IMG/VR virus record: IMGVR_UViG_3300023700_000002
Span: 1 to 42,843 of that record
From: a virus
Direction: 5' to 3' (one strand)
Length of the DNA stretch: 42,843 nt
Each line of letters begins with the position of its first letter. Positions within the stretch are counted from its first letter, which is position 1. The position numbers and the translations under genes are program-made. Below the pieces are notes generated by a model. That model saw only the letters and a list, made by a program, of their open reading frames with translations, made no database searches and was not told where the DNA came from. Shown one piece after another: positions 1,717 through 30,101 of the stretch.

Positions 1717-2226
1717 TCATTGTTTTACGCTATGCGATTTGTGCCTTTGAAAATCAGCTTCGTAAATCGCGGCACCTTGTGTGCTGTGGCAAACAAGCGC
1801 GTTTTCGCCGTTGCTATTTTCAGCAGAATTTGTGTAATTGAACGAGCCGTTCTCAATCAATGCACCATCCACAATCATCACTTTGTTGTGTGCAATGGCA
1901 TGGGTTGCATCAATCCATACTGGAATGCCTGCCTTAATCAGGTCTGGCATCTTGCTCGATGGTGCTGTTTTATTGCTGCGGTCAAGAACCACCAGCACTT
2001 CGGCACCGCGAGCATGTGCGCGAATCAGTGCATCGGTAATCGGCTGACTGGTGAAGCCATAGGCCAAAACGTGGACGCTTGACTTAGTGCCGTCCACAAT
2101 CTGCACCACAGCCTCAGTAGCGCCGCCTTTTGGGGAAAAATGCACATCGCAGCCACTGGCATCGACACTGAACGACGCAGCAAAAACCGACTGACAGAAG
2201 GCCAGTAAGAAAAACAGCTTTTTCAT
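1717..2226 (-). CDS. Exported phospholipase D-family nuclease (Nuc-like)
   Basis: A 169-residue protein with a Sec signal peptide (MKKLFFLLAFCQSVFAA, cut near residue 17) and one PLD/HKD motif: H113-x-K115-x4-D120 followed by GSFN (127-130). Single-HKD proteins of this size belong to the Nuc/EndA endonuclease group, which act as dimers on DNA or RNA without metal; they were first known from conjugative plasmids. The ATG at 2226 has AGGAG six bases upstream and follows the portal stop by three bases, so it is translationally linked to portal. A strong terminator follows. A secreted nuclease between portal and scaffold is unusual: it may cleave incoming or released DNA in the periplasm (superinfection control) or scavenge nucleotides. 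Family assignment is firm, the role is not. Confidence 0.85.
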   Translation of the reverse strand: MKKLFFLLAFCQSVFAASFSVDASGCDVHFSPKGGATEAVVQIVDGTKSSVHVLAYGFTSQPITDALIRAHARGAEVLVVLDRSNKTAPSSKMPDLIKAGIPVWIDATHAIAHNKVMIVDGALIENGSFNYTNSAENSNGENALVCHSTQGAAIYEADFQRHKSHSVKQ

Positions 2227-2229
2227 CAA

Positions 2230-3669
2230 TTACTCCTGAATGTTGATCTTCTTCTGCGCGTCGGCTTCACGCGCCACCAGTTCGGCAGCAGCCAACGCAG
2301 CCTCGGCCTCAACATCTTCAATGTCGTAGTCGGCGGCGATCACCTTCAAAGCCGTCTGACGACTGATGACACCGGCATCGATCAAGATGCGCAGTGTAGT
2401 CGCTGTCTGTTGCTTATCTGATGCCGTGGGTTGGTACCAAGCAGGCCAGCGCAAGGCGATTTGCGTGCTCGATTCAAATTTGCCGACCTTGGTTCCGTCC
2501 TTGTAGGTCAAGGGCAACTTGTCCGAGGCCTTGATGACCATCATCAGCAGTTGACGCAACGCGCCTTCGCCGTAGCTGATGCGCAGCTTGTCCGCGAGCC
2601 ACACGAGTGACTGGTTCATCAACTCCATCGCGCGACCGGATTGCGCCGCGCTGATCTTGTCAGCGTTGGCGCGGTTGCCATGCATGGTTTCCAAAGCCAA
2701 CTCGCGCAGCTTGGTCACGTATTCCATGACCGCTTCGATTGCGGTGCCGTTGATTTCGAGCAACTTGGCGTCACCCTCGGCACTTACCTTGATGGCGTTG
2801 GAGGCAGAGCGCACCATGGTGCCGTCAGAGAACGCGGGTTCTTTGATCAACAGCGTGGGGTCAGCCGAGTATTTCAGACCGCGACCGGCTTGCGAAAGCT
2901 GATAGTCAATCTCGATGCTGGTATCAACCGCCTCGTTGGGGAACGTGCAAGCGCCGTCGATAGCGTCGCCACCTGGCAGGTTCTTGACCCACACAACGGG
3001 TACGAAACCGAGCGCGTGGTTGACGGTGCGCGGCGTATCAATGGCTGGCACAGCCTGCTCGTCGTTGACCTTCCAAGGCAAGAACCACGTTTCCGAGTTC
3101 TCATCCCAGACGCGGCGAAACCAATACTCGGTGTTGTCGTTGTCCACCGCATAGCCCAAGGCTTTCAGGGTGGAACCCTTGACCTTGTATTGCTCGGTCA
3201 CGCTCTCTAGCGTGTCGGGGGCCTTGTCCTTCCATGTGGGCGTCAGGTACGCGGTGTCCATCGCATCGAAGAACACGCGCCCATCGAGCACACGGAACAG
3301 AATAGCCACTGAGCCAACGCTACCGCGCGTGGCGGCGTCCACCATCAACTCGTTGAGCTTGGTTTCTTTGATCAGCCGTTGCAGCGCTTCACGCACTTTT
3401 TCGTCGGCGTCAACGTCTGGGAAATGGCCTTCTGAGAACAGAAGAGACACGGAGTCATCCACCACGAGCTTGCACAGGCCGTAGCGTACGGACGGGCGGC
3501 GCTCGCGAAGCGGGATGTATTCGCCTGCCGGACTTTTTTCGTCGTGAAATGCATACGGCAGGTTGTCGTAAATCTCGCCGCGCAATACCCGCGTCAGGAT
3601 TGACAGCCGGTACGTGCGCTCCGGCAGGTCTTTATCCTTCGGAAAGGTGGTTTGCAGCGTCTTAAACAT
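2230..3669 (-). CDS. Portal protein
   Basis: A 479-residue protein located directly downstream of the large terminase (stop and start adjoin at 3669/3670). Length and order fit the SPP1 gp6-type portal family, which forms a twelve-subunit ring at one capsid vertex and is the DNA entry point for the terminase motor. Visible features: charged N-terminal region with LRGEIYDNLPYAF (about 30-42), a middle segment rich in acidic and aromatic residues, a helix-forming region around ETMHGNRANADKISAAQSGR (about 329-348) and a C-terminal alanine-rich helix. The ATG at 3669-3667 is used. No unusual composition. Identification rests mainly on context and size. Confidence 0.85.
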   Translation of the reverse strand: MFKTLQTTFPKDKDLPERTYRLSILTRVLRGEIYDNLPYAFHDEKSPAGEYIPLRERRPSVRYGLCKLVVDDSVSLLFSEGHFPDVDADEKVREALQRLIKETKLNELMVDAATRGSVGSVAILFRVLDGRVFFDAMDTAYLTPTWKDKAPDTLESVTEQYKVKGSTLKALGYAVDNDNTEYWFRRVWDENSETWFLPWKVNDEQAVPAIDTPRTVNHALGFVPVVWVKNLPGGDAIDGACTFPNEAVDTSIEIDYQLSQAGRGLKYSADPTLLIKEPAFSDGTMVRSASNAIKVSAEGDAKLLEINGTAIEAVMEYVTKLRELALETMHGNRANADKISAAQSGRAMELMNQSLVWLADKLRISYGEGALRQLLMMVIKASDKLPLTYKDGTKVGKFESSTQIALRWPAWYQPTASDKQQTATTLRILIDAGVISRQTALKVIAADYDIEDVEAEAALAAAELVAREADAQKKINIQE

Positions 3670-4956
3670 TTATCGAGCCATGTGAATGATTTGTGTGCCA
3701 TGCGTTGCGACAGGCCTCACGATAGGCCAGCGGAAATGCACGAAATACCCAAGCGCATCTGGCGCGTGATCTTTACCGGCGGTCTTGTCAGGGTCGCCGT
3801 TTTGGTCATAGACCTGCTGTTCTAAGCACTCCGTCAAAACAGGACAGTTGCGCGTGTTCACCAACAGACTGCGAACACCTTTGGCGTTCAGGACAGCGGC
3901 ATTAACCGCCGCCACGCGGTCTTTCACAGCAGGGTTGGTGCTATTCGCGCAGATTGTAAGTCCGGCATCCTTCATGATTTGCAGGTCAGACAAAGCGGCG
4001 TTAACCGACTTGTGCCCTTGCCCGCTTGCATCGGGGTAGACCGTGACGTGGTGGCCTTGCGACTTGTAGCGGTCAACCAGCTTCTTCGCCATGTCTGGCG
4101 TGTCACGCATTCCGGTCAACTCAGCCACGATCACGGGCTTGTTGTCACGAATCACGCCGACCATTGCCGTGCAGTTGTAGACGTTGAAGTCAACGCCCAC
4201 ATGCACAGGCTCGCCGTGTTGCAACTCAGCGTCGGTGTGGTTCAGCGCCCGTGAAAACTCGGGGTAAACCGCGCCGCTTGTCAGGTTGACGAATTCCCCG
4301 TTGAGGTACGCGTCAATCAGTTGCGGCGGGTATGAAGCCAGCAGCGACGGAATGTAGTCAGCGGGAAGGAATCGCTCGTTTTCGTAGGTGCTGGCCTGAA
4401 TCAGGCCGTACATCTTGCGAAGGTCGGGCTTTTCGTTTGGCAGCTTATAAAACTGCTCGTAGACGAACTTGAACCCCTCGGGAGTCGTTGCAACGTCGAT
4501 GCCGTTGCGCAGCCCGTCCACGTTGTAGCGCATACGCGCAATGATCTTGCGCCAAGAAAGCTTCGCCTTCTCGTGCTTCATCACGTCCAACTCGTCAACC
4601 AGCGCATTGCCGATCTTGAAGCCCACGATTTGCTCGGGATGGTCCATCGACCGGCAAATCACCGTGCCACGCGACCGGTTGCCGTCAAAGAAGTGAACCT
4701 CTTTGTTCGACTGGTTGATCTTGACGCGCAGGCCCATGCCTGCGGCGACTTCCTCAATCGTCGGGTAAAAAATATCCCGAATCTGTGGATAAGTCGGCGC
4801 GAAGTAGCCTTGGTTGATGCGCGGGTGTGCCCACAAGTGCTCGCAGATCGCAGTGCTGCCCACCCATGTCTTGCCGGAGCCGAACCCGCCTACATAGGCG
4901 CGGAACTTGTGGGGCAGTTGAAGGAATTGGGCCTGCGGTCTAGTCAGCGTCGGCAT
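3670..4956 (-). CDS. terL: Terminase large subunit (packaging ATPase/nuclease)
   Basis: A 428-residue DNA packaging motor. The N-terminal ATPase has Walker A GGFGSGKT (residues 23-30), Walker B ALVDELD (118-124) and coupling motif TTPEGF (157-162). The C-terminal RNase H-fold nuclease shows the expected acidic residues in GVDF (D256), YPDASG (D309) and HAPDALGY near the C-terminus. It cuts concatemeric DNA and drives it through the portal. It overlaps the small terminase gene by 17 bases, and the portal gene follows immediately. All key motifs appear intact. The sequence alone does not show whether packaging is headful or cos; the assembly circularising inside the coat gene is compatible with a permuted headful genome. 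Confidence 0.95.
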   Translation of the reverse strand: MPTLTRPQAQFLQLPHKFRAYVGGFGSGKTWVGSTAICEHLWAHPRINQGYFAPTYPQIRDIFYPTIEEVAAGMGLRVKINQSNKEVHFFDGNRSRGTVICRSMDHPEQIVGFKIGNALVDELDVMKHEKAKLSWRKIIARMRYNVDGLRNGIDVATTPEGFKFVYEQFYKLPNEKPDLRKMYGLIQASTYENERFLPADYIPSLLASYPPQLIDAYLNGEFVNLTSGAVYPEFSRALNHTDAELQHGEPVHVGVDFNVYNCTAMVGVIRDNKPVIVAELTGMRDTPDMAKKLVDRYKSQGHHVTVYPDASGQGHKSVNAALSDLQIMKDAGLTICANSTNPAVKDRVAAVNAAVLNAKGVRSLLVNTRNCPVLTECLEQQVYDQNGDPDKTAGKDHAPDALGYFVHFRWPIVRPVATHGTQIIHMAR

Positions 4957-5485
4957 CTGCTGACTTTCTGCCGTCCACCACGTTGTACGTGAAGGTCTTG
5001 GATTCTGGCGTTACATCCAAATCATCGTCAGCGCCCTTGCGCTCCAACTCGGCGCGTGTGCGCTCAAGCGATTCGATGCGGGCCGTTACTGAATCAATGA
5101 TCTTGGTGTAGTCGCGGCGCTTGAGTGTTACCTCTTTGGCGACCGTGCTCGGGCCACCGCCTTGGCGTTGAGTGACCGAATCAAGCTCGGGCTTGTTGGC
5201 ACTCTCTTCCTCGGCCTTCAAAGCCCGCGCCAATCGGATGCGCATCAAACGCAACTCGTCGTCTACGCGTCCGAGTTCAAGCGCGTCAAACGCCTCTTGT
5301 TCTTCGGGTGTGAGAAATTGGCTGTAGATGCTCCCCGGCTTCGCGGCGTTCTTGTTGCCTACGGCTGGTTTCTTTGGGCCGGTACTTGCACCCCCGTGCA
5401 GCTTGCAGCGTTTCTTCCCCTCCATGGGTGCCTTCTTACAAGGCTCACCGCTGCGTGTCTTGGCCCCGCATGATTTTTCGGGCAT
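4940..5485 (-). CDS. Terminase small subunit-like DNA-binding protein
   Basis: A 181-residue protein. The N-terminus has a cysteine/histidine cluster (C6, C16 and CKLHGG near 27-32) followed by a Gly/Lys/Asn-rich basic stretch (GASTGPKKPAVGNKNAAK), the HGG-type start seen in many phage proteins encoded just before TerL. A central helical domain contains FLTPEEQEAFDALELGRVD and RLMRIRLARAL (about 58-90), typical of small terminases that recognise pac/cos DNA and regulate the large subunit. The C-terminus is charged and likely coiled. The start follows GGAGGG with a leader also found before the scaffold gene. First gene of the structural series; family assignment is moderately sure. Confidence 0.75.
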   Translation of the reverse strand: MPEKSCGAKTRSGEPCKKAPMEGKKRCKLHGGASTGPKKPAVGNKNAAKPGSIYSQFLTPEEQEAFDALELGRVDDELRLMRIRLARALKAEEESANKPELDSVTQRQGGGPSTVAKEVTLKRRDYTKIIDSVTARIESLERTRAELERKGADDDLDVTPESKTFTYNVVDGRKSADADAD

Positions 5486-5677: not shown

Positions 5678-5902
5678 ATGCGAACAAAACTCTCAGTCGT
5701 AAAAGACCACATGGCCTCACAGCGTTGGCAGGACGCCATACGCATTGCGGCGCGATTCCCTCAGCTTGGGGAGCAGCGCAGCGCCATTCTTGACGCCCAC
5801 ACCGCTTACACCAACCCGCGCTGGTCGCTCGGGCTTGGTCATGACCTAGCGGCGTTGAAGGAAGCCGGTCGGCTAGCCCTCATCGCCCGCTTCGGCGAAT
5901 AA
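5678..5902 (+). CDS. Small conserved phage protein, plus strand, unknown function
   Basis: A 74-residue protein starting at the ATG after AAGGA (7-base spacing). It reads as a compact helical protein (KDHMASQRWQDAIRIAARFP, then HTAYTNPRW near 46-54). I recognise this as a type of small protein common in proteobacterial phages near terminase or methylase genes, but know no function. It stands alone on the plus strand between two minus-strand genes and its last 30 bases overlap the 3' end of the methyltransferase gene. Any transcript would be antisense to the methyltransferase end and then to its coding region. No convincing promoter was seen upstream. Confidence 0.7.
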   Translation: MRTKLSVVKDHMASQRWQDAIRIAARFPQLGEQRSAILDAHTAYTNPRWSLGLGHDLAALKEAGRLALIARFGE

Positions 5903-7291
5903 TTCCTCATCAATCTCAACGTCCCCGCACGCTTCGACGGCCTTCTTCGGGTCGCCCTTGCAGAAAACGAGAATGTTTTGATGCGTTTTGCCTAGCTTTC
6001 GGCTGGCGCTGAATTGCTTTCCTGCGCGGATTGGCAGGCTACCTGCCACCGTCACAAGGATGGCTTCGTTGTAGTAGTCCAACCCGGCATCACGGAAGGC
6101 CTGCACGGTGTCGCCGATGAAATCGTAATACGCCCCGCGCTTGTCTCTCACCTCGCCCACCACAAAGCAGGCGAAGCGGTCAGGCTTCAACAGGCTGCAG
6201 GTCTTGTGGATGATCTGAAGGTAGGCGTCCCGAAATTCGGGGTAGTCCAACGTCGAAAGGTCTGCCGGGTCGTCCGAGTAGACCTCAAGGTCTGCATACG
6301 GCGGGCAGGAAAACACGAAGTCGGCCTGCGTGCCCTTGCACAGCTTGTCGATGTTGCGTGAGTCGCCGGTAATCCATACCGGCTGAATCTCTTGGCACAG
6401 GCTCGCGGCTTGCACCCGGTTGGCCTCAACCTGCTCATCGCGCAGGTCAACGCCGATGTATTCGCGGCCCAACTTGGCGGCGACGATGCCACGCACGCTG
6501 CCACCGGCAAACGGGTCAAGCACCAAGCCACTCGGCGGGCAAAACCAACGGTAGGCAACCTCGCACAACGTGGGGTCGAAGATGCTGGTGCCCTTCTGAA
6601 CGATTGCGTCCGGTCGGGCCTCGACAAACTCAGCCCATGTGACCTCGCGGCCCACCTTGGCCTCGTATTCGTTTTTCGCGCGGTAGGTGGCTGGCGGTTG
6701 CGACGATACCGAGAACGTCAGCGTTTCATCGCGCCCAACCTCGGAGCGCAGCCCCATGTCTATCCAGCCGCGCTTTCGGTCTTGCCACCAGCCTTCGCGG
6801 GCGTTGAGCACGGAAAACGGCGGTATCAGGAAGCGGTCAGACAGGCTCACACCATCGCCGAAGCCCTCGGCCCCAACGCTGTTGAGCAAGTCGTCTAGTT
6901 CTTCCTGCGAAAAGCCGATCAGGTCAATGTCGAAGCCCTCGGCCTGCAGGTCGCCCAACTCAAGCGCCAGCAATTCTTCATCCCACCCGGCGTTCAGCGC
7001 CAATTTGTTGTCGGCGATTATGTAGGCACGTTTCTGCGCCTCGCTCATGCCTTCCAGTTGGATGCAGGGCACCTGCTCGATGCCGAGCTTACGTGCGGCA
7101 AGAACTCGCCCATGTCCGGCGATGATGCCGTTGCCGCCATCGATGAGCACCGGATTCGTCCAGCCCCATTCCTTGACACTCGCGGCGATCTGCGCGATTT
7201 GCGCGTCTGAATGCATCCGGGCGTTTTTGGCAAACGGAATCAGCGACTCGACGGCGCGGTATTCAATGACTAGCCCGCTGGCTTCTGTCAT
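5873..7291 (-). CDS. ParB-domain DNA methyltransferase (N4/N6 type)
   Basis: A 472-residue fusion. Residues about 11-105 are a ParB/Srx-like nuclease-fold domain (NPVLIDGGNGIIAGHGRVLA, then KRAYIIADNKLAL). The C-terminal part is an AdoMet-dependent methylase with DPFAGGS (259-265) and CPPY (329-332, in place of DPPY or NPPY). Such proteins methylate adenine-N6 or cytosine-N4 in phage DNA, often to escape host restriction. The cysteine in CPPY is less common than Asp/Asn/Ser. The ATG at 7291 is preferred; a TTG at 7312 in the same frame lies right at a terminator T-run. Two intrinsic terminators precede the gene, so its expression likely depends on antitermination or an adjacent promoter. Confidence 0.9.
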   Translation of the reverse strand: MTEASGLVIEYRAVESLIPFAKNARMHSDAQIAQIAASVKEWGWTNPVLIDGGNGIIAGHGRVLAARKLGIEQVPCIQLEGMSEAQKRAYIIADNKLALNAGWDEELLALELGDLQAEGFDIDLIGFSQEELDDLLNSVGAEGFGDGVSLSDRFLIPPFSVLNAREGWWQDRKRGWIDMGLRSEVGRDETLTFSVSSQPPATYRAKNEYEAKVGREVTWAEFVEARPDAIVQKGTSIFDPTLCEVAYRWFCPPSGLVLDPFAGGSVRGIVAAKLGREYIGVDLRDEQVEANRVQAASLCQEIQPVWITGDSRNIDKLCKGTQADFVFSCPPYADLEVYSDDPADLSTLDYPEFRDAYLQIIHKTCSLLKPDRFACFVVGEVRDKRGAYYDFIGDTVQAFRDAGLDYYNEAILVTVAGSLPIRAGKQFSASRKLGKTHQNILVFCKGDPKKAVEACGDVEIDEELFAEAGDEG

Positions 7292-7310: not shown

Positions 7311-7344
7311 AAAAAAATACCCGAGCAGCGTTAGCCACTCGGGT
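7311..7344 (-). terminator. Intrinsic terminator just upstream of the methyltransferase
   Basis: On the minus strand ACCCGAG (7344-7338), a 12-base loop, CTCGGGT (7325-7319), then A and seven T residues (7317-7311). It ends only about 20 bases before the methyltransferase ATG. It is the second of two terminators in a row and may act as an attenuator or antitermination target. Confidence 0.8.
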
Positions 7345-7364
7345 AAATCACCCTCAGGAGACAC

Positions 7365-7406
7365 ATGAAAAACCACGAAACACAACAAAAGCCACGGTAC
7401 AAATGA
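7365..7406 (+). CDS. Possible 13-residue leader-type ORF
   Basis: An ATG placed four bases after CTCAGGAG, the same ribosome site used by several real genes of this phage, opens a 13-codon frame (MKNHETQQKPRYK) that stops right before the hairpin at 7409-7430. It lies on the plus strand between two minus-strand terminators. The match to the phage's own ribosome site is the only support; no plus-strand promoter was identified with confidence. Confidence 0.25.
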   Translation: MKNHETQQKPRYK

Positions 7407-7430
7407 AAAAGCCGCCTGTTGAGGCGGCTT
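7406..7430 (-). terminator. Strong intrinsic terminator after the Q-position gene
   Basis: Nine-base stem AAGCCGCCT/AGGCGGCTT (7430-7422 and 7417-7409) with a four-base loop; on the minus strand it runs into five T residues (7410-7406). It would end transcription coming from the early operon or from the candidate promoter at 7488-7460. On the plus strand the tail is poor. Confidence 0.85.
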
Positions 7431-7459
7431 ATTCGGTACTGATGGCTAGAGTGACATAA

Positions 7460-7488
7460 ACGATAACACCTTGTATCAAAAGCGGCAA
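7460..7488 (-). promoter_or_regulatory. Candidate late promoter (PR'-like)
   Basis: Minus strand: TTGCCG (7488-7483), 17-base spacer, TATCGT (7465-7460). The start would be near 7452, with the two terminators directly downstream. This order (Q-like gene, promoter, terminator, late genes) is that of lambda PR'/tR'. The boxes are imperfect, so this is inferred mostly from position. Confidence 0.45.
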
Positions 7489-7521
7489 GGCCTCAGAGCG
7501 AATAAAAACAACCATGAAATG

Positions 7522-8121
7522 TCATTGGCATTCAATTACGCCGTCGCGCTCAAAGTACGGGGTTAGCCGGTCAAACGCCAAGGTTTCAAGCTCGCGCAAG
7601 CGGTGGCTGATCTTCTTGGCGTGACGGCACAGCGTGTCCTTGTTGCAGCCGGACTTCTCCGAAATGGCGCGAAAGGTCGGGCGCATCCCCTCGACGTTTG
7701 ATGTGGCGCGAATCACCAGCAGCTTCAATACCTCGGGCGGCAAACTAGCGTGCTCGGCGGTCAGCCAACCGGCAAGGCTGTCCAGCGCCTCGGCTTTTTC
7801 TGGCGGTAGGTAGTAGGCCGTCTCGCCATCGCGGGTCTTGCCGACCTTGACCATGCCGTAGCGGGAAACGATCACCCAGAACTCGGGGCCGAACAGCTTG
7901 GTACGGCACGAGGCGCGAATCATGGCGCATTGCCCGCGAATCTCAAGCGAAGTCAAGCCGCCGAAGTTGATGCTGCCAGGTTCCGATTTCCAAAGACCCA
8001 ACGACATGAGGTGTTCGCGCAGCATCTTCGCCATGACGCTTTCGCTAGATGCCTCAAGCGACTCCATGATGAAGGAAAAATGAACCGCTTGGCTCGTGCT
8101 CTTGAAAATCGCCTTGTTCAT
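7522..8121 (-). CDS. Phage regulator at the Q position, with C-terminal helix-turn-helix
   Basis: A 199-residue protein; the ATG at 8121 overlaps the stop of the preceding gene as ATGA, so longer upstream frames are rejected. The N-terminus (MNKAIFKSTSQAVHFSFIME) and a central LTSLEIRGQCAMIRAS are typical of a conserved phage family found at the end of early right operons. The C-terminal third (about 130-175: RATSNVEGMRPTFRAISEKS then GCNKDTLCRHAKKISHRLRE) reads as a helix-turn-helix. It is the last gene of the cro-replication operon, and a candidate promoter and tandem terminators follow, which suggests a late activator or antiterminator. That role is inferred from position, not shown by a known antiterminator domain. 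Confidence 0.7.
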   Translation of the reverse strand: MNKAIFKSTSQAVHFSFIMESLEASSESVMAKMLREHLMSLGLWKSEPGSINFGGLTSLEIRGQCAMIRASCRTKLFGPEFWVIVSRYGMVKVGKTRDGETAYYLPPEKAEALDSLAGWLTAEHASLPPEVLKLLVIRATSNVEGMRPTFRAISEKSGCNKDTLCRHAKKISHRLRELETLAFDRLTPYFERDGVIECQ

Positions 8122-9400: not shown

Positions 9401-10320
9401 CGCGCAACACCCGCAATGAGTTCAGCTACGCGCTTTTGTCCGGCCTTGTCGGGCGCACCGCCTTCCAACTCCAAAACGCGCCTCTCAACCCGTGCACGGT
9501 AAGCAGGGAAATGCTCTCGGTTGGCGCTCAGGTCGTGCTCATTCCAGTCACCGACACCGATTTCAATGCCCTTGGCACGAATGCCCTTGGCTGTCTCACG
9601 CCAGTCCATCGGCTCTGCGCCGCCATCAGCCTCAGGCACTACGCCGTCAAGCCAGCGCTTGCCGCGCAGGTAGACCAACGGAGCTTCCACAAAGCCCTCG
9701 GCCCATTTCTTGGTGCCCCGCTTCGTTCGCACGTCGCCCAAGATCGCCTCGGCCTTCTCGTCAAGCTGGTTTCGTTTCCAGTGGTCAAGGCACTTGGCCT
9801 TGTCCTGCTTTCGCTCGCCCTTGGGCCATGCCAACCAGAAATCATCAAAGCGATTTGCAGCCGCCACCCGCTTGCGGGGGGTAGGGGGGGTATCTTTTGG
9901 TGTTGGTGTTGGTGTTGGTGTTGGTGTTGGTAGCTCAACATCCGTTTGCGCGTCTTGTTGAGCGTCCGTTGAGCGTTCGTTTAACGGACGTTGAGCGTTC
10001 GCTCTGCGGGCGTTGACCGATGCTTGAGCCGACGCTCTGGCTTTAATCTGCTTGTCCTGCATACGCTCGATTTCGTCGTTGCATCGGTCGTGATACCAAC
10101 CGTCAACGCCTTGAGCAAAGAATTCGCGCACAACAGCCGCCACGGTGTCGGCGTGGTCACGCATACGAATAAGGCGGGCCACCTCTGCCAAATCAAGCGG
10201 CAAAGCCTTCTCATGGAGGTAGTAAAGGTCAATGCAACGTCGGTATGCAATGTCCTCAATGGGGCTAAGGTGCGCTGTGTGCGCCGCATAGTCCCCGATG
10301 TGGAACGGGTAATAGTTCAT
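9397..10320 (-). CDS. Replication initiation protein (DUF1376 N-terminal domain)
   Basis: A 307-residue protein. Residues 1-85 match the DUF1376 winged-helix domain of phage initiators (MNYYPFHIGDYAAHTAHLSP..., IEDIAYRRCIDLYYL). A flexible linker (about 100-150) follows, with a (TP)n stretch, then a conserved C-terminal region (FDDFWLAWPKGERKQDKAK and RTKRGTKKWAEGFVEAP). Such proteins occupy the position of lambda O. The linker DNA carries 12-base repeats at 11- and 22-base steps that look like origin iterons. It overlaps the Cro-like gene upstream by four bases, so PR drives it. No separate helicase loader gene is seen next to it, so the host helicase route is unclear. Confidence 0.85.
   Translation of the reverse strand: MNYYPFHIGDYAAHTAHLSPIEDIAYRRCIDLYYLHEKALPLDLAEVARLIRMRDHADTVAAVVREFFAQGVDGWYHDRCNDEIERMQDKQIKARASAQASVNARRANAQRPLNERSTDAQQDAQTDVELPTPTPTPTPTPKDTPPTPRKRVAAANRFDDFWLAWPKGERKQDKAKCLDHWKRNQLDEKAEAILGDVRTKRGTKKWAEGFVEAPLVYLRGKRWLDGVVPEADGGAEPMDWRETAKGIRAKGIEIGVGDWNEHDLSANREHFPAYRARVERRVLELEGGAPDKAGQKRVAELIAGVAR
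9899..9930. repeat. Hexanucleotide tandem repeat in the replication gene
   Basis: Five full copies of GGTGTT plus two bases. On the coding strand it encodes alternating Thr-Pro in the linker between the two domains of the replication protein. Copy number could slip, but any six-base change would only lengthen or shorten the linker by two residues. Confidence 0.9.
9957..10023. other. Candidate replication origin: iteron array inside the replication gene
   Basis: Three copies of GTTGAGCGTYCG begin at 9957, 9968 and 9990, and a degenerate copy (GTTGACCGATGC) begins at 10012. The steps are 11, 22 and 22 bases, one or two helical turns, and place copies in different codon phases, so protein repetition does not explain them. 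An inverted pair CGTCCGTT (9963-9970) and AACGGACG (9983-9990) is embedded. Lambda-type phages keep the origin at this very place in gene O. No obvious AT-rich melting region was found close by. Confidence 0.55.
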
Positions 10321-11956: not shown

Positions 11957-12823
11957 TTGAACGCAATCACTACACAGGAAACGACAATGCTGCCCGCGCT
12001 GCAGATGAGCGAAGCCGAGCTTATTGAAGTCTTAGCCACCAGTCTGTATCCCGGTGCTCAAGTCACGAGCATCAAAATGGTCTTGGGCTACTGCAAAGCC
12101 GCTGGCCTAGACCCGATGCAAAAGCCCGTGCACATCGTCCCCATGTGGGACAAGAACACCAAGTCGATGCGCGACGTGGTGATGCCCGGTATTGGCCTTT
12201 ACCGCACTCAGGCTGCACGCTCCAACGCGTACGGCGGCATCGATGAGCCGATTTTTGGCCCTGACGTGACCGAGAAGGTTGGCGGCGTTGAAATCACCTA
12301 CCCACAGTGGTGCAAGGTCACAGTCAAGCGCCGATTGCCTGACGGTGTCACCGCTGACTTCACCGCCGTTGAGCGATGGAAAGAGAACTACGCCACCGCA
12401 GGCAAGGACACCACCGCGCCAAACGCAATGTGGAAGAAGCGCCCCTACGGTCAGCTTGCCAAGTGCGCCCAAGCCCAAGCCTTGCGCATGGCATTCCCCG
12501 AAATCGGCGCAGAGGCCACCGCAGAAGAAATGGAAGGCAAAGCATTGTTCGACGGCGAAACCATCGAGGCCGAAGCGACCCCCCGCGTGGCTATGCCCAA
12601 GCCCAAGACCGAAGCCGCGCAGACGGTTGAGCAAAAGCAGACCACCCAGACCGATGCCGCACCCAAGCCAGTCGCCGCAGGCCAACTCAAGTGGATTGAG
12701 AACAAGTGCAAGGCGCTTGGCCTTGAGGTTGATTCCGTGCTCAAAGAAAAGGGCGTTGAATCCCTCGATACGATCACGCCCGAGCAGTTCGATACCGTCA
12801 AAGCTCACTTGATGGCGGCGTAA
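11957..12823 (+). CDS. bet: Redbeta/Bet-family single-strand annealing protein
   Basis: A 288-residue protein. Residues about 20-190 match phage Bet recombinases: YPGAQVTSIKMVLGYCKAAG, LDPMQKPVHIVPMW, VVMPGIGLYRTQAARS, and the conserved QLAKCAQAQALRMAFPE near residues 165-180. The C-terminal 90 residues are a linker plus a small helical domain (LKWIENKCKALGLEVDSVLK) that in this family binds SSB or the exonuclease. It anneals complementary single strands during phage recombination. The start is TTG at 11957, placed exactly as ATG is elsewhere after CTCAGGAGTAAACC. The exonuclease partner follows two bases after its stop. Confidence 0.9.
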   Translation: MNAITTQETTMLPALQMSEAELIEVLATSLYPGAQVTSIKMVLGYCKAAGLDPMQKPVHIVPMWDKNTKSMRDVVMPGIGLYRTQAARSNAYGGIDEPIFGPDVTEKVGGVEITYPQWCKVTVKRRLPDGVTADFTAVERWKENYATAGKDTTAPNAMWKKRPYGQLAKCAQAQALRMAFPEIGAEATAEEMEGKALFDGETIEAEATPRVAMPKPKTEAAQTVEQKQTTQTDAAPKPVAAGQLKWIENKCKALGLEVDSVLKEKGVESLDTITPEQFDTVKAHLMAA

Positions 12824-12825
12824 TC

Positions 12826-13392
12826 ATGCTGACGTTTGACGAAGCCACGCACACCTACTATTGGCACGGCAAGCGCGTGCCGGGTGTGACTGGCCTGCTC
12901 AAGACCCTGCACAACTTCGACGGCGTGCCTACCGATGTGCTTGAGGCCGCATCACAGCGCGGTACCGCCGTGCATTTGGCCTGCGAATACCTCGACAAGG
13001 GCATTCTCGATGAGGACAGCGTAGACCCTGCAATCGCAGGCTACGTCAACGGCTGGCGTCTGTTCATGGCTGAGAAGAAACCAGCATGGAGCGCGATTGA
13101 GCAGATGTTCTACCACCCCGCGCTTGCCTACGCTGGCACGCTCGACCGCGAAGGCCTCATGGAGGGCGACGAGTGGACGCTGGACATTAAGACTGCCGCC
13201 GCATCACACCCCGTTTGGGGCATCCAAACCGCCGCCTATGCAAATGGACGCGGCAAACCAAAATCACGGCGCGGCACCGTGCAGCTTCGCGCTGACGGCA
13301 CCTACCGCCTGATCGAATGGAAGGCCAGCACAGATTGGCCCGTTTTTGTATCTCTCATCACCATCACCTCATTTTTGGAGCAACACAAGTGA
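12826..13392 (+). CDS. RecB-like PD-(D/E)xK exonuclease, partner of Bet
   Basis: A 188-residue nuclease. Motifs: RGTAVHLACEYLDKG (about 45-59), GTLDREG (about 106-112, catalytic Asp), WTLDIKTAAA (about 118-127, D-x-K) and GIQTAAYA (Q-x3-Y) shortly after. This is the PD-(D/E)xK layout of RecB/Cas4-type exonucleases that pair with Redbeta proteins in the way lambda Exo does, degrading one DNA strand to expose substrate for annealing. Start at ATG 12826, three bases after the bet stop; its stop overlaps the next gene's GTG. Confidence 0.85.
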   Translation: MLTFDEATHTYYWHGKRVPGVTGLLKTLHNFDGVPTDVLEAASQRGTAVHLACEYLDKGILDEDSVDPAIAGYVNGWRLFMAEKKPAWSAIEQMFYHPALAYAGTLDREGLMEGDEWTLDIKTAAASHPVWGIQTAAYANGRGKPKSRRGTVQLRADGTYRLIEWKASTDWPVFVSLITITSFLEQHK

Positions 13393-16047: not shown

Positions 16048-16920
16048 ATGTTCAAGAACATAATCATTTACCGCTTTAAAAAGCCCGACAACGACATATC
16101 GCCAACCCTCGATGAATTCGTGCCCTGTGGATCAACTCAAGAAAAATCGTTGGGATGGGTGCCGCCACGCGAGGCACACGGAAAGCTTATCGAAGTAATT
16201 GGCGGCAACTCCATTCTGAAACTCCTGACGGAGACAAAGAGCGTCCCAACTGATGTGCTCACGCGCAAAGCGGCGGAGCGTGCCCGCGAAATCAATCACA
16301 ACGAGGGCCGCAAGCCTAGCAAGAAAGAAATGCGGGAAATCAAGGAAGACATGAAACTTGCCCTCCTGCCGCACGCATTTGCCAAGCGCACAGCCACCAC
16401 AGTGATGTTCACCAAGGATGGCTTTTTGTTGATAGACGCATCTAACCAATCCAAAGCGGACGACGCCATAACTATGCTCGTTCGTGCTTTCGACGGACTT
16501 GTGGTTACGCTTATCAACACCAACAAATCGCCAGCAACCTCTATGGCTAATTGGCTCATTGAACAGGAGCCACCCCACGGTTTCAGCATTGACCGCGAGT
16601 GCGAATTAAAGGCGGCTGATGAAAGCAAAGCCGTGGTTAAGTATGGCCGTCACCCGCTGGACATTGACGAGGTTAAGGCCCACGTAGAAAGCGGCAAGTT
16701 GCCCACCAAGTTGGCGATGACCTACAACGCCCGAACATCGTTTGTGCTGACCGAGGCGATGACGCTCAAGAAAGTGCAATTCCTTGACGTGGTGTTTGAA
16801 GACCAATCCGGCGAAGGCCACGAAGATGGTTTTGATGCAGACATGACCATCATTGCTGGAGAAATGCAGCCCCTCTTGAATGGGCTTATTGAGGTGTTGG
16901 GCGGGGAGATGGAGATATGA
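16048..16920 (+). CDS. rdgC: RdgC recombination-associated protein
   Basis: A 290-residue homologue of RdgC (about 303 in E. coli), a ring-shaped DNA-binding protein that limits RecA. Diagnostic stretches: MFKNIIIYRF at the N-terminus, LGWVPPREAH (about 36-45), VLTRKAAERAREI (about 70-82), RKPSKKEMREIKEDMKLALL (about 88-107) and MTYNARTSFVLTEAM near 228-242. Carrying rdgC together with bet and exonuclease suggests the phage shifts recombination from host RecA to its own annealing route. It overlaps dut by four bases. Confidence 0.9.
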   Translation: MFKNIIIYRFKKPDNDISPTLDEFVPCGSTQEKSLGWVPPREAHGKLIEVIGGNSILKLLTETKSVPTDVLTRKAAERAREINHNEGRKPSKKEMREIKEDMKLALLPHAFAKRTATTVMFTKDGFLLIDASNQSKADDAITMLVRAFDGLVVTLINTNKSPATSMANWLIEQEPPHGFSIDRECELKAADESKAVVKYGRHPLDIDEVKAHVESGKLPTKLAMTYNARTSFVLTEAMTLKKVQFLDVVFEDQSGEGHEDGFDADMTIIAGEMQPLLNGLIEVLGGEMEI

Positions 16921-27061: not shown

Positions 27062-27322
27062 TTATTCCTTTGGGAATCGAGCCTTAATTTCTGCGACTTT
27101 GGCTTTCCATTCGTCCATCGTGGCTTCGCCGCGTTGGGCTTTGAAGAAAATCGGGTCGGATTCTTCGCGGTAGGCAGATTCTCGTTGCTGAACCGCCATT
27201 TCTACCAGATCAGGCTGAATAGGATCAGGCTGCACTTCTGAAAATGTTTCTTCTTTGGTGCAATCGGATTTTGAATTTACGGCACGCCAACTTTTGCCGT
27301 CTTTACGAATTGCATAACTCAT
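27062..27322 (-). CDS. Tail fibre assembly protein (XkdW-like)
   Basis: An 86-residue protein whose ATG overlaps the end of the large tail fibre gene (ATGA). N-terminus SYAIRKDGKSWRAVNS, C-terminal half YREESDPIFFKAQRGEATMD then EWKAKVAEIKARFP. The C-terminal motif of the type REESDPLFFKxxRGExT...W is that of short chaperones found after tail fibre genes in many phages. It likely helps fold or attach the fibre. Confidence 0.8.
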   Translation of the reverse strand: MSYAIRKDGKSWRAVNSKSDCTKEETFSEVQPDPIQPDLVEMAVQQRESAYREESDPIFFKAQRGEATMDEWKAKVAEIKARFPKE

Positions 27323-29358
27323 AGATTGTCCTCCCATCCAATACACGACAAATAACCAGCCGCACTAGAAGCCCAATAAATATTTGAGCTTTCCAGCGAC
27401 ATTTCAAAAGCAAACGAATCATTTGCAAGATTGCCCGAAGGGTACGAAAACGCGATTTGTGGCGGGTTTGAAGCAGAACCAATCGCCCCATAAGACGAGT
27501 TAGGTGCCGCCATCCATATCCCGGTTACACCATTTCCCATAAGAGACGCTTTTATTGCCGATGCAGTGCTTGGCACAAAATTGCCTACGGCAACAGCAAC
27601 CCATGTCGGAGTTGATGTACTACCAGCAGCTCCACTAGCCATTAGAGGCAATCCGGCCACGTTGCTGCCTGCTGCTACCGAATACTGCACGCGGCGACCA
27701 TATTGCTTGAACGACAGCGGATATTTGTTTGCTGTTGAATCCGTGCGAATCCAGCCGACGCGAGCCTTGTGCGTGTAGCCGCTTGGAAGCGTTGGAGCCG
27801 TGGTAGATAGCGAGAGCAGACCAGCAGTGGTTGTACCGTTCCAAATTACCCACAGAGAGTACCAAGTCGAGGTAGCGATGGTACCGGTGTCGAGTGCGTT
27901 AGCGCCGGTCGTTGTTCCTGCAATAGTCAGGCTGACAGAGCGAAGCGCCTGATATTGGTTGCTTCCATTTTCGACAACAATTTCATCGGCGCTGACGCTG
28001 ACGTTTGCATTCAGGCCTGTGGCAGACACGACTAAGTTCTTGAATGCGCCCTGCACTGTTGCGATAGCACTATCAACATACTGCTTCGGAGCAGCGTGCA
28101 GGTTGTTAGTCGGGTTGCCAGCAAGAGTCAGCGGCCCCGTAAGCGTGCCACCAGCTAGTTGCAGGTAACGCAGATCACCAGTGGCTTGCGTCAGCGCATT
28201 CGCCACCGTGAACGATGTGAAGGCGTACACCACTACCACGTCGCCCGCGTTGCAAGCGGTTGCCAGCGTGATACTTGAGCCGTTTGTTGCGGTGAATGCC
28301 GAAGGCGACAGCGTTGAGCCGTTCTTGACGACTGTGATGTTTCCGGGCGTGTAGCCGACCGTGAACACCGTTTGGCCTGCGGTCGCAGTAAATGGCGTCG
28401 GGGTAAAGCTTGATTGGTTTGCTGCACCCGCCGCAATGACGTTTACGCCATCGCAATACAAAATCATCGACTGACCTTGAGGAATCAAGATGCCGGTACC
28501 GGCTGCGGTCTTGACGGTCAAGCTGTACGCGCCGCTTGTGTTGTTGCTCACAATCCACTGATGCGAAGCGGCGGGCACGATCACGTTGATGTTGGCGCTC
28601 AACGTGCCAGAGAAGCCGATGATCGGATTTGCGGCTTCTTGAGTGGTCAATGTCACATCGGAGCCACCGGCTACGCTCTTGGCATACAAGGCGTTGTGCA
28701 AAGCCGAAGCGATGCCCGACGATGGCACGGATGGGTTGCCAGAATACGTGCTGATGTTGCCAGCGGTGATGGTGGTCTGACCGTAGGCCACAGTGACCAC
28801 ATACAAGCCCACGTTGCCCGAATCAGGCGATGGCGTGGTTTGGCTACCTGTGGTCGCAGCGGTACCGGCCTTGACGGTCACAACGCACTGATCGGCGCGG
28901 GTCGTGACGCTGGTCGAGCCTGAGTTGTTCGGGCCGTTCCAAGCTTGCGAAGGGTTGCTTGCGTTGTAGAACGGCAGCACCGTGGCGTTGGTGTCGGTTT
29001 CGGCGAATGCGGCCTGCACCAAGTAGTTGATGCTTTGACCGGTGGTGCCGGGAGCAGGGCAAGACAACGTGACCGCATCGAGCAAGATGCCTTGCTTCAA
29101 GATTTGATGCGTGGTGTCAGCCGCCAGCGAGGAATACGCGGTGTCGTCAATGTTCTTGAGCGCGTAGATTTCGCCTGCACCCACGGAAACCTGCAAGGAT
29201 GCCGGAGCAGTTGCACCGCAAGACAGGCCGTTGATGGTGGTGCCGCTACCTAGCAGCGCGGCGGCGAGCTTTGCAATGGAAACCATCGCATTCTTGTTGG
29301 TGTTGAGTAGGTCTGTCTCCAGCGGGATAGCGCCGGGCCAAACAATATTGCGATCCAT
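27319..29358 (-). CDS. Large tail fibre protein
   Basis: A 679-residue protein, nearly all beta-rich and Thr/Ser/Ala/Gly-rich. N-terminal baseplate-attachment segment (MDRNIVWPGAIPLETDLLNT, then NKNAMVSIAKLAAALLGS). A middle shaft includes LQLAGGTLTGPLTLAGNPTN and LHAAPKQYVDSAI (about 405-435), the signature repeat of phage fibres. The C-terminal part (about 460-679) is likely the receptor-binding tip, with many aromatic residues. It determines host range. A hairpin terminator lies just before its start, separating it from the baseplate genes. Confidence 0.85.
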   Translation of the reverse strand: MDRNIVWPGAIPLETDLLNTNKNAMVSIAKLAAALLGSGTTINGLSCGATAPASLQVSVGAGEIYALKNIDDTAYSSLAADTTHQILKQGILLDAVTLSCPAPGTTGQSINYLVQAAFAETDTNATVLPFYNASNPSQAWNGPNNSGSTSVTTRADQCVVTVKAGTAATTGSQTTPSPDSGNVGLYVVTVAYGQTTITAGNISTYSGNPSVPSSGIASALHNALYAKSVAGGSDVTLTTQEAANPIIGFSGTLSANINVIVPAASHQWIVSNNTSGAYSLTVKTAAGTGILIPQGQSMILYCDGVNVIAAGAANQSSFTPTPFTATAGQTVFTVGYTPGNITVVKNGSTLSPSAFTATNGSSITLATACNAGDVVVVYAFTSFTVANALTQATGDLRYLQLAGGTLTGPLTLAGNPTNNLHAAPKQYVDSAIATVQGAFKNLVVSATGLNANVSVSADEIVVENGSNQYQALRSVSLTIAGTTTGANALDTGTIATSTWYSLWVIWNGTTTAGLLSLSTTAPTLPSGYTHKARVGWIRTDSTANKYPLSFKQYGRRVQYSVAAGSNVAGLPLMASGAAGSTSTPTWVAVAVGNFVPSTASAIKASLMGNGVTGIWMAAPNSSYGAIGSASNPPQIAFSYPSGNLANDSFAFEMSLESSNIYWASSAAGYLSCIGWEDNL

Positions 29359-29370
29359 TTTTGCTCCTAG

Positions 29371-29419
29371 AAAAAAAGAAACCCGCCGGGGTGCGCATCG
29401 TTGAGAGGCGTAGCGGGTT
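29371..29419 (-). terminator. Intrinsic terminator between baseplate and fibre genes
   Basis: Minus strand AACCCGC (29419-29413) and GCGGGTT (29386-29380), 26-base loop, followed by TC and seven T residues (29377-29371). Read-through or a local promoter is needed for the fibre gene. Confidence 0.7.
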
Positions 29420-29441: not shown

Positions 29442-30101
29442 TTAACCAGTAATGCGTGCCCAAATTGTCGTGCCAACCGGTTTCACTCCGTCAATCGCGG
29501 CGTAAATGTCGGCGTCACTCACACCGCCTTGCACCATGTTGAGCGAGGCATAGACAGCGCGTGAAGGCACGCCATAGCCACCAGCAGGGTTTCCGTAGCC
29601 GTTGACATAGGGAATACCCGTTCCAAGCGGCCTAAATGCTGTGACCCAAGCTTGAAACGGCCCGACGACTTTGGAGCCGTATGCACCAGCAACGCCGTAG
29701 CCGCAGGCAATGCCATAGCCGCCCGTATCGCGCGCGCGCAGCGGCTCGTAGATGATCGGCGTGCGCCCAGTCAGGTCTTGCAACACCTTGACGATTGCAT
29801 TGCGGGTCGCACGTTCTCGAAAGATGTTGATGACGATCTGATTGCGAAACGATGCGTCAGACTGGTTGGTCTTGCGCAGCAGGTTCGTGCCGAAGAAATC
29901 GGCGGCGATCACATCAAGCCAGCCATCCGTAGCCGTCAGGATGCGCGTTTGCAGAACGGCGTAGGCGTATAGGGAATAGATGAAGCTGCCCGCCCATGCA
30001 AGGCCTTGCAATACCGCGTCCAAGAACGGGGACGAATCCCCGAACCATGGTGGAAGGGCCGACTTGAGCCGATTGAATACGTCTTGTTGGTCACCGGTCA
30101 T
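29442..30101 (-). CDS. Baseplate protein, Mu gp48/P2 gpI-like
   Basis: A 219-residue protein directly downstream of the J-like baseplate protein, the position of Mu gp48. N-terminal helix region (DVFNRLKSALPPWFGDSSPF, then YSLYAYAVLQTRILTATDGW, about 41-60), a central LDVIAADFFGTNLLRKTNQS, and a C-terminal Gly/Tyr-rich stretch (GGYGIACGYGVAGAYGSKVV). The first part is that of wedge proteins which connect the baseplate to tail fibres. The glycine/tyrosine repeats may form the fibre-docking surface. Confidence 0.7.
   Translation of the reverse strand: MTGDQQDVFNRLKSALPPWFGDSSPFLDAVLQGLAWAGSFIYSLYAYAVLQTRILTATDGWLDVIAADFFGTNLLRKTNQSDASFRNQIVINIFRERATRNAIVKVLQDLTGRTPIIYEPLRARDTGGYGIACGYGVAGAYGSKVVGPFQAWVTAFRPLGTGIPYVNGYGNPAGGYGVPSRAVYASLNMVQGGVSDADIYAAIDGVKPVGTTIWARITG

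Follow-up and report, generated by a model that had tools for sequence, protein, structure and literature searches.

The region between positions 7311 and 7521 of the virus record considered here (42,843 bases, all of which I will call the window) is very probably where a temperate phage controls its late genes; the adjacent gene, at 7522-8121, would then encode the phage's late antiterminator, a relative of AlpA of Pseudomonas aeruginosa. The reading of the region as a late switch that works by antitermination is well supported by the DNA elements present there, by their conservation and spacing in related phages, by the homology of the protein to AlpA and by synteny. Two of these elements, a sequence between -35 and -10 that resembles the AlpA-binding element (ABE) and a -10-like pause sequence, do not appear in the earlier note on this DNA, and they carry most of the evidence.

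The early-side genes run leftwards on the minus strand from about 10.5 kb: a Cro-like helix-turn-helix (HTH) protein, a DUF1376 replication protein, small genes, a VRR nuclease and lastly the gene at 7522-8121, whose product, a putative AlpA-like antiterminator, has 199 amino acids and a C-terminal HTH. There follow about 230 bases with no minus-strand gene. The promoter and both terminators described below lie within this interval on the minus strand, the strand of the HTH gene and of the genes that come after. The first gene past the terminators encodes a fusion of a ParB-like domain and a DNA methyltransferase (5873-7291; Pfam PF01555, PHROG 498), with an ATG start at 7291 and an open frame that extends up to a TTG at 7312. 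Behind it are the terminase small subunit (4940-5485; PHROG 1889), the terminase large subunit (3670-4956; PF03237, PHROG 2), the portal protein (2230-3669; PF05133, PHROG 145) and a scaffold gene. The major head protein lies at the opposite end of the record, and 26-31 kb is occupied by baseplate and tail genes of the same strand, so that the map would be circularly permuted, with the late genes apparently continuing across its ends.

Some other features of the window may be recorded here. The methyltransferase gene carries its ParB-like N-terminus as a fusion and is placed ahead of terminase. Directly behind the portal gene in the late operon, a small gene (1717-2229, minus strand) has a signal-like start and is a candidate for a secreted nuclease of the phospholipase D type. 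An abiF RNA (Rfam RF03085; 46.3 bits, gathering threshold 37) lies on the minus strand at 29381-29417, flanked by a baseplate-like gene (29442-30101) and a tail-fibre-like gene (27319-29358); no abiF/Abi_2 gene was found by Pfam among its neighbours, an unusual location for an RNA linked to abortive infection. The plus strand holds a block with a full-length RdgC homologue (16048-16920; PF04381, E 1e-89), RecT (11957-12823) and an exonuclease (12826-13392). Finally, a short (G)GTGTT tandem repeat at 9897-9932 encodes PTPTPTPTP within the DUF1376 replication protein.

The earlier note had described a candidate promoter and two strong terminators between the HTH gene and the methyltransferase and terminase genes, and these are indeed present. 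The promoter consists of a -35 element, TTGCCG (7483-7488; the family consensus is cTTG(A/C)), a 17-base spacer and a -10 element, TATCGT (7460-7465), all on the minus strand. A TG at 7468-7467 ahead of the latter makes it an extended -10, TGTTATCGT, and an alternative -10, TTTATGT, lies slightly downstream. Within the spacer is the ABE-like sequence TGATACAA (7471-7478), to be compared with TGnnACA[G/A] in the family and with the published ABE, GGGACG at -25 to -20 (PMC9371919). Transcription is predicted to start at about 7452-7453, and the region initially transcribed would contain the putative pause element CACTCT (7448-7453), which parallels the family's A+1/T+5 and the AlpA promoter. Intrinsic terminator 1 (7406-7430; stem 7430-7409, T-run to 7406, -15.4 kcal/mol) lies some 23-48 bases beyond the predicted start. 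Intrinsic terminator 2 (7311-7345; stem 7345-7318, then seven T as far as 7311, -20.8 kcal/mol) ends 20 bases short of the methyltransferase ATG, too small a gap to hold a promoter for that gene, in keeping with the proposal that the late genes are reached only through the terminators.

Among the 11 terminators found between 5 and 11 kb, these two are the strongest (12 and 9 pairs, as compared to 5-6 in the other nine). The raw count is not above chance, 7.8 being expected, and the promoter was missed by the promoter scanner, falling below its 9-of-12 threshold; its hexamers alone are not above chance either. Neither result was used as evidence. Judged by its hexamers the promoter is ordinary; its significance comes only from comparison with relatives. 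A search of Rfam gave no RNA element at the late control region.

The HTH protein belongs to PHROG 17923 (E 2e-30), a family whose function is listed as unknown, and it matches no family in Pfam or NCBIfam. Single-sequence searches found no relative in viral contigs or genome contigs and none in PDB, and a pairwise BLASTP against AlpA also gave nothing. Alignment-based searches brought in about 100 relatives, from phages and prophages chiefly of beta-proteobacteria: 1 of the 369 genomes in a class-wide sample had a relative, and so did 30 of 300 in a sample of Burkholderiaceae, fragments and weak matches included. One phage relative in GenBank comes from Burkholderia phage BgManors32 (32% identity), where the gene likewise precedes terminase.

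A profile made from 49 members of the family was compared to all PDB chains and gave one clear match, AlpA of P. aeruginosa (7xya/7xyb; E 3.2e-18), which spans positions 4-207 of 212 and thus nearly the full length. The next match (E 0.22) is noise. The eight-member clade that includes the window's protein finds AlpA by itself (E 4.2e-7, versus 8.7 or worse with shuffled sequences), as do the remaining 41 members (E 4.7e-19); 50 shuffled AlpA sequences, serving as the control for the family profiles, gave E values of 0.6 or worse. The AlphaFold2 model of the window's protein (pLDDT 90.7, pTM 0.84) leads to the same place. With Foldseek, only the two AlpA cryo-EM chains in PDB are significant (E 1.1e-4 and 3.5e-4, probability 1.00), with TM scores (target) of 0.73-0.79. 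Confidence in the model is lowest at residues 21-50, within the N-terminal portion; the segment of AlpA that forms the ring belongs to the corresponding portion of that protein. Since profile and fold match while BLASTP finds nothing, the link between the two proteins is one at the level of profile and fold. At that level the HTH protein is homologous to AlpA, judging from sequence profiles and the predicted structure, and by sequence search it lies outside the known Q families: none of those in Pfam, NCBIfam or PHROGs matches the protein or its family.

The protein had been taken in the earlier note for a conserved phage HTH protein of no known Q family, as it proved to be. The further suggestion, that it may represent a distinct family of antiterminators, holds insofar as the protein stands apart from known Q families; it fails insofar as homology to AlpA means that this is not a separate kind. 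In a tree of the family, AlpA sits at the end of a branch of length 3.1, and its placement is unreliable.

In order to find what is conserved near the gene, the interval from -80 to +220 around its stop codon was taken from 65 non-redundant loci and given to a motif search with no knowledge of promoters built in. The motif returned, cTTG(A/C)...TGngACAg..G...TAnATTTTcGCCAnAcTCG, is a sigma-70 promoter plus two extra conserved places. The one between -35 and -10 comprises T-26 (96%), G-25 (96%), A-22 (76%), C-21 (86%) and A-20 (91%). The other follows T-7 of the -10 (98%) and comprises A+1 (96%) and T+5 (96%), whose spacing is that of the A and T within a -10 element. G-16, downstream of the single TGnnACA block, is only weakly conserved (62%). 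Conservation is concentrated in the promoter spacer, the -10-like element and the terminator, with little in the loop, and in many phages the stop codon of the gene lies inside the -35 hexamer (cTTGA). A palindromic site was considered as well, CTGnnnCAG being present in some relatives, but the logo of the family gives no support to a complete palindrome.

Each locus was scored by a model that left that locus out, with a cut-off of 15 bits. A site of at least 15 bits occurs at the stop codon in 39 of the 65 loci, where the rest of the locus, on both strands, reaches at most 13.7 bits, and in 9 others it is shifted downstream, still on the strand of the gene. A terminator comes just after the site in 46 of 52 cases, as compared to 123 of 1040 random positions (12%), and mostly ends near +45 to +55. 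In 51 of 53 sites ABE and pause element are the same distance apart, a count somewhat favored by how the sites were selected. Conserved synteny of gene, promoter and terminator, proposed earlier as a check, is seen in most of the homologous loci. The layout likened to PR'/tR' of lambda, in which the gene is adjoined by promoter element, pause element and terminator, recurs in most relatives.

For thirteen of the 65 relatives the DNA available contains no site, and some of these loci are incomplete or divergent (L019, for example). Six protein relatives without a recognisable same-strand site in the available DNA (L009, L014, L066, L069, L071, L086) may have a different site code or have lost the function. 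In five others (L011, L022, L010, L058, L065) the element lies 385 to 2412 bases past the gene, with the motif kept in all and the terminator in most; additional genes have apparently entered the space between antiterminator gene and element.

The motif also performs outside the loci it was trained on. In 14 new Burkholderiaceae loci, the site was found at the stop codon in nine and displaced in one. A scan of 2.9 million viral contigs with the promoter-core pattern returned four matches, and in all four the gene lies a few bases upstream. Terminase genes follow in both the window and BgManors32, and among the long genes that come after the relatives, those for the terminase large subunit and the portal predominate (counted over proteins rather than per locus).

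The window's own copy is divergent. Scored by a motif built from relatives with the window left out, it ranks first over both strands of the 42,843 bases at 16.4 bits (runner-up 11.4), when the distance from ABE to pause element is held fixed and the -10 and -35 are allowed to slide by one base. That spacing rule was chosen after seeing L019, L025 and the window, and the rank should be read together with that from a stricter scan without it, in which the site scores 7.0 bits and comes about fourth to seventh genome-wide. The held-out Burkholderiaceae genomes provide the cleaner test of the motif. The lower rank marks the copy as divergent, and even its 16.4 bits compare to 20-43 for most relatives. 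The -10 is weak and one base off the family position. The distance from C7473 of TGATACAA to A7452 of CACTCT is 21, the family spacing, and the nearest relative, L019 (44% identity), likewise combines a divergent site with identical spacing.

Processive antitermination has been demonstrated for AlpA, whose site lies between -35 and -10: the protein joins RNA polymerase during a sigma-dependent pause and builds a nozzle inside the RNA exit channel (PMC7969949, PMC9371919). In its promoter every base of GGGACG is needed, and the -10-like sequence, CACGAT at -1 to +5, requires A+1 and T+5 (PMC9371919). The register of the family motif (C-21, A+1/T+5) is that of the published AlpA promoter, and the motif was derived before those numbers were read. 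The two systems share the element between -35 and -10, the -10-like sequence at -1 to +5 with A+1 and T+5, and an intrinsic terminator shortly downstream. The bases of the element are partly different: TGnnACA at -26 to -20 in the phages, with A rather than G at -20. Among the DNA contacts of AlpA (R128, K138, S139, T140 and H142), the window's protein keeps R128, K138 and T140 and has D in place of S139 and C in place of H142. The phage protein is about 25 residues longer than AlpA. AlpA is chromosomal and runs a self-lysis operon, whereas its phage relatives precede terminase and virion genes.

By analogy with AlpA, start site, pause, binding and antitermination in the phage would come about as follows. 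RNA polymerase would start constantly near 7452 and be paused as sigma region 2 holds CACTCT. In the absence of the HTH protein, transcripts would end at terminator 1 or terminator 2. Once expression of the early operon has supplied the protein, TGATACAA between -35 and -10 would be bound by its HTH, and on the polymerase so loaded terminator hairpins could not form. Both terminators would be passed, and the methyltransferase, terminase, portal and downstream virion genes transcribed. The antiterminator role that the earlier note assigned to the protein gains support from the homology to AlpA and from the conserved element and terminator. The mechanism would be that of AlpA and, one step further, that of Q proteins, rather than a new kind of antitermination.

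An HTH protein with a conserved site in a promoter might instead be an ordinary activator that recruits polymerase to the late promoter, the terminators serving only to close the early transcript or being leaky, and several members of the family do weakly match sigma region 4. I judge this unlikely, since it leaves unexplained both the strong terminator at about +45 in 46 of 52 sites and the conserved -10-like element with A+1 and T+5, and the one relative with a solved structure, AlpA, acts as an antiterminator rather than an activator (PMC7969949). It is less likely still that promoter and terminators make only a short regulatory RNA, the late genes being reached by incomplete early termination or from a promoter beyond them that escaped notice. 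In any case an RNA of about 45-50 bases, ended by the terminator, is expected, and lambda also makes such an RNA. Against this account stand the distance of only 20 bases from terminator 2 to the start codon of the first late gene, too short for a promoter, and the pattern of conservation, in which the loop has little part.

I give the least credence, indeed scarcely any, to the idea that the protein belongs, as a remote relative, to a lambdoid Q family (that of 21, 82 or lambda) rather than to AlpA's. Gene position and promoter architecture are the same as in those phages, AlpA itself has a 21Q-like fold (PMC9371919), and one weak match to a viral model carries the name antitermination protein Q (E 0.21, probability 0.87). 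However, the Q families in the three databases have no match, and the matches listed from the profile and fold searches of PDB include AlpA and neither 21Q nor lambda Q.

The preferred reading, antitermination by an AlpA relative, would place the phage close to lambdoid phages in the way late genes are controlled. In the PR'/QBE/tR' arrangement of phage 21, as in lambda and 82, the Q gene is just upstream of the late promoter, followed by the element between -35 and -10, the sigma-dependent pause element, the terminator and then the late genes, and C at -21 is essential in the QBE of 21 as well (PMC6606751). The layout works alike; it does not mean membership in a Q family. These Q proteins have no detectable sequence relation to the window's protein, and the QBE of 21 is a direct repeat of TGAGCA bound by two protomers, in contrast to the one TGnnACA of the phage family, as for AlpA, where one protomer binds. 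The two TGAGCA repeats were not found in the family motif. An AlpA of another type, that of CP4-57 (PF05930), shares only its name with AlpA of P. aeruginosa, and is an unrelated excisionase-like regulator; the window's protein has no Pfam match. GafZ of Caulobacter is an antiterminator with a putative element between the -10 and -35 of a phage-like gene cluster, acting with GafY and IHF; according to the paper describing it, GafZ resembles no known antiterminator in sequence or structure (PMC11150451).

In the published work on AlpA, no antiterminator homologous to it in sequence was found, and a prophage was the authors' guess for the origin of the system. A search of the phage literature gave no earlier report of AlpA relatives at phage late genes. 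I consider it probable that PHROG 17923 comprises widespread phage late antiterminators, equivalent to Q and unrelated to it in sequence, that rule the late operons of many beta-proteobacterial phages, and that AlpA of P. aeruginosa is a captured copy that has kept the promoter code. With the antiterminator reading, a protein family listed as of unknown function is given one, and late promoter, start and terminator are named for about 50 phages and prophages at once. The many natural pairs of protein and site may serve to examine how regulators of this type recognise their DNA, and the constant 21 bases that separate the binding element from the pause element amount to a rule open to testing. 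AlpA would gain its missing phage counterparts and join the late-gene switches of phages.
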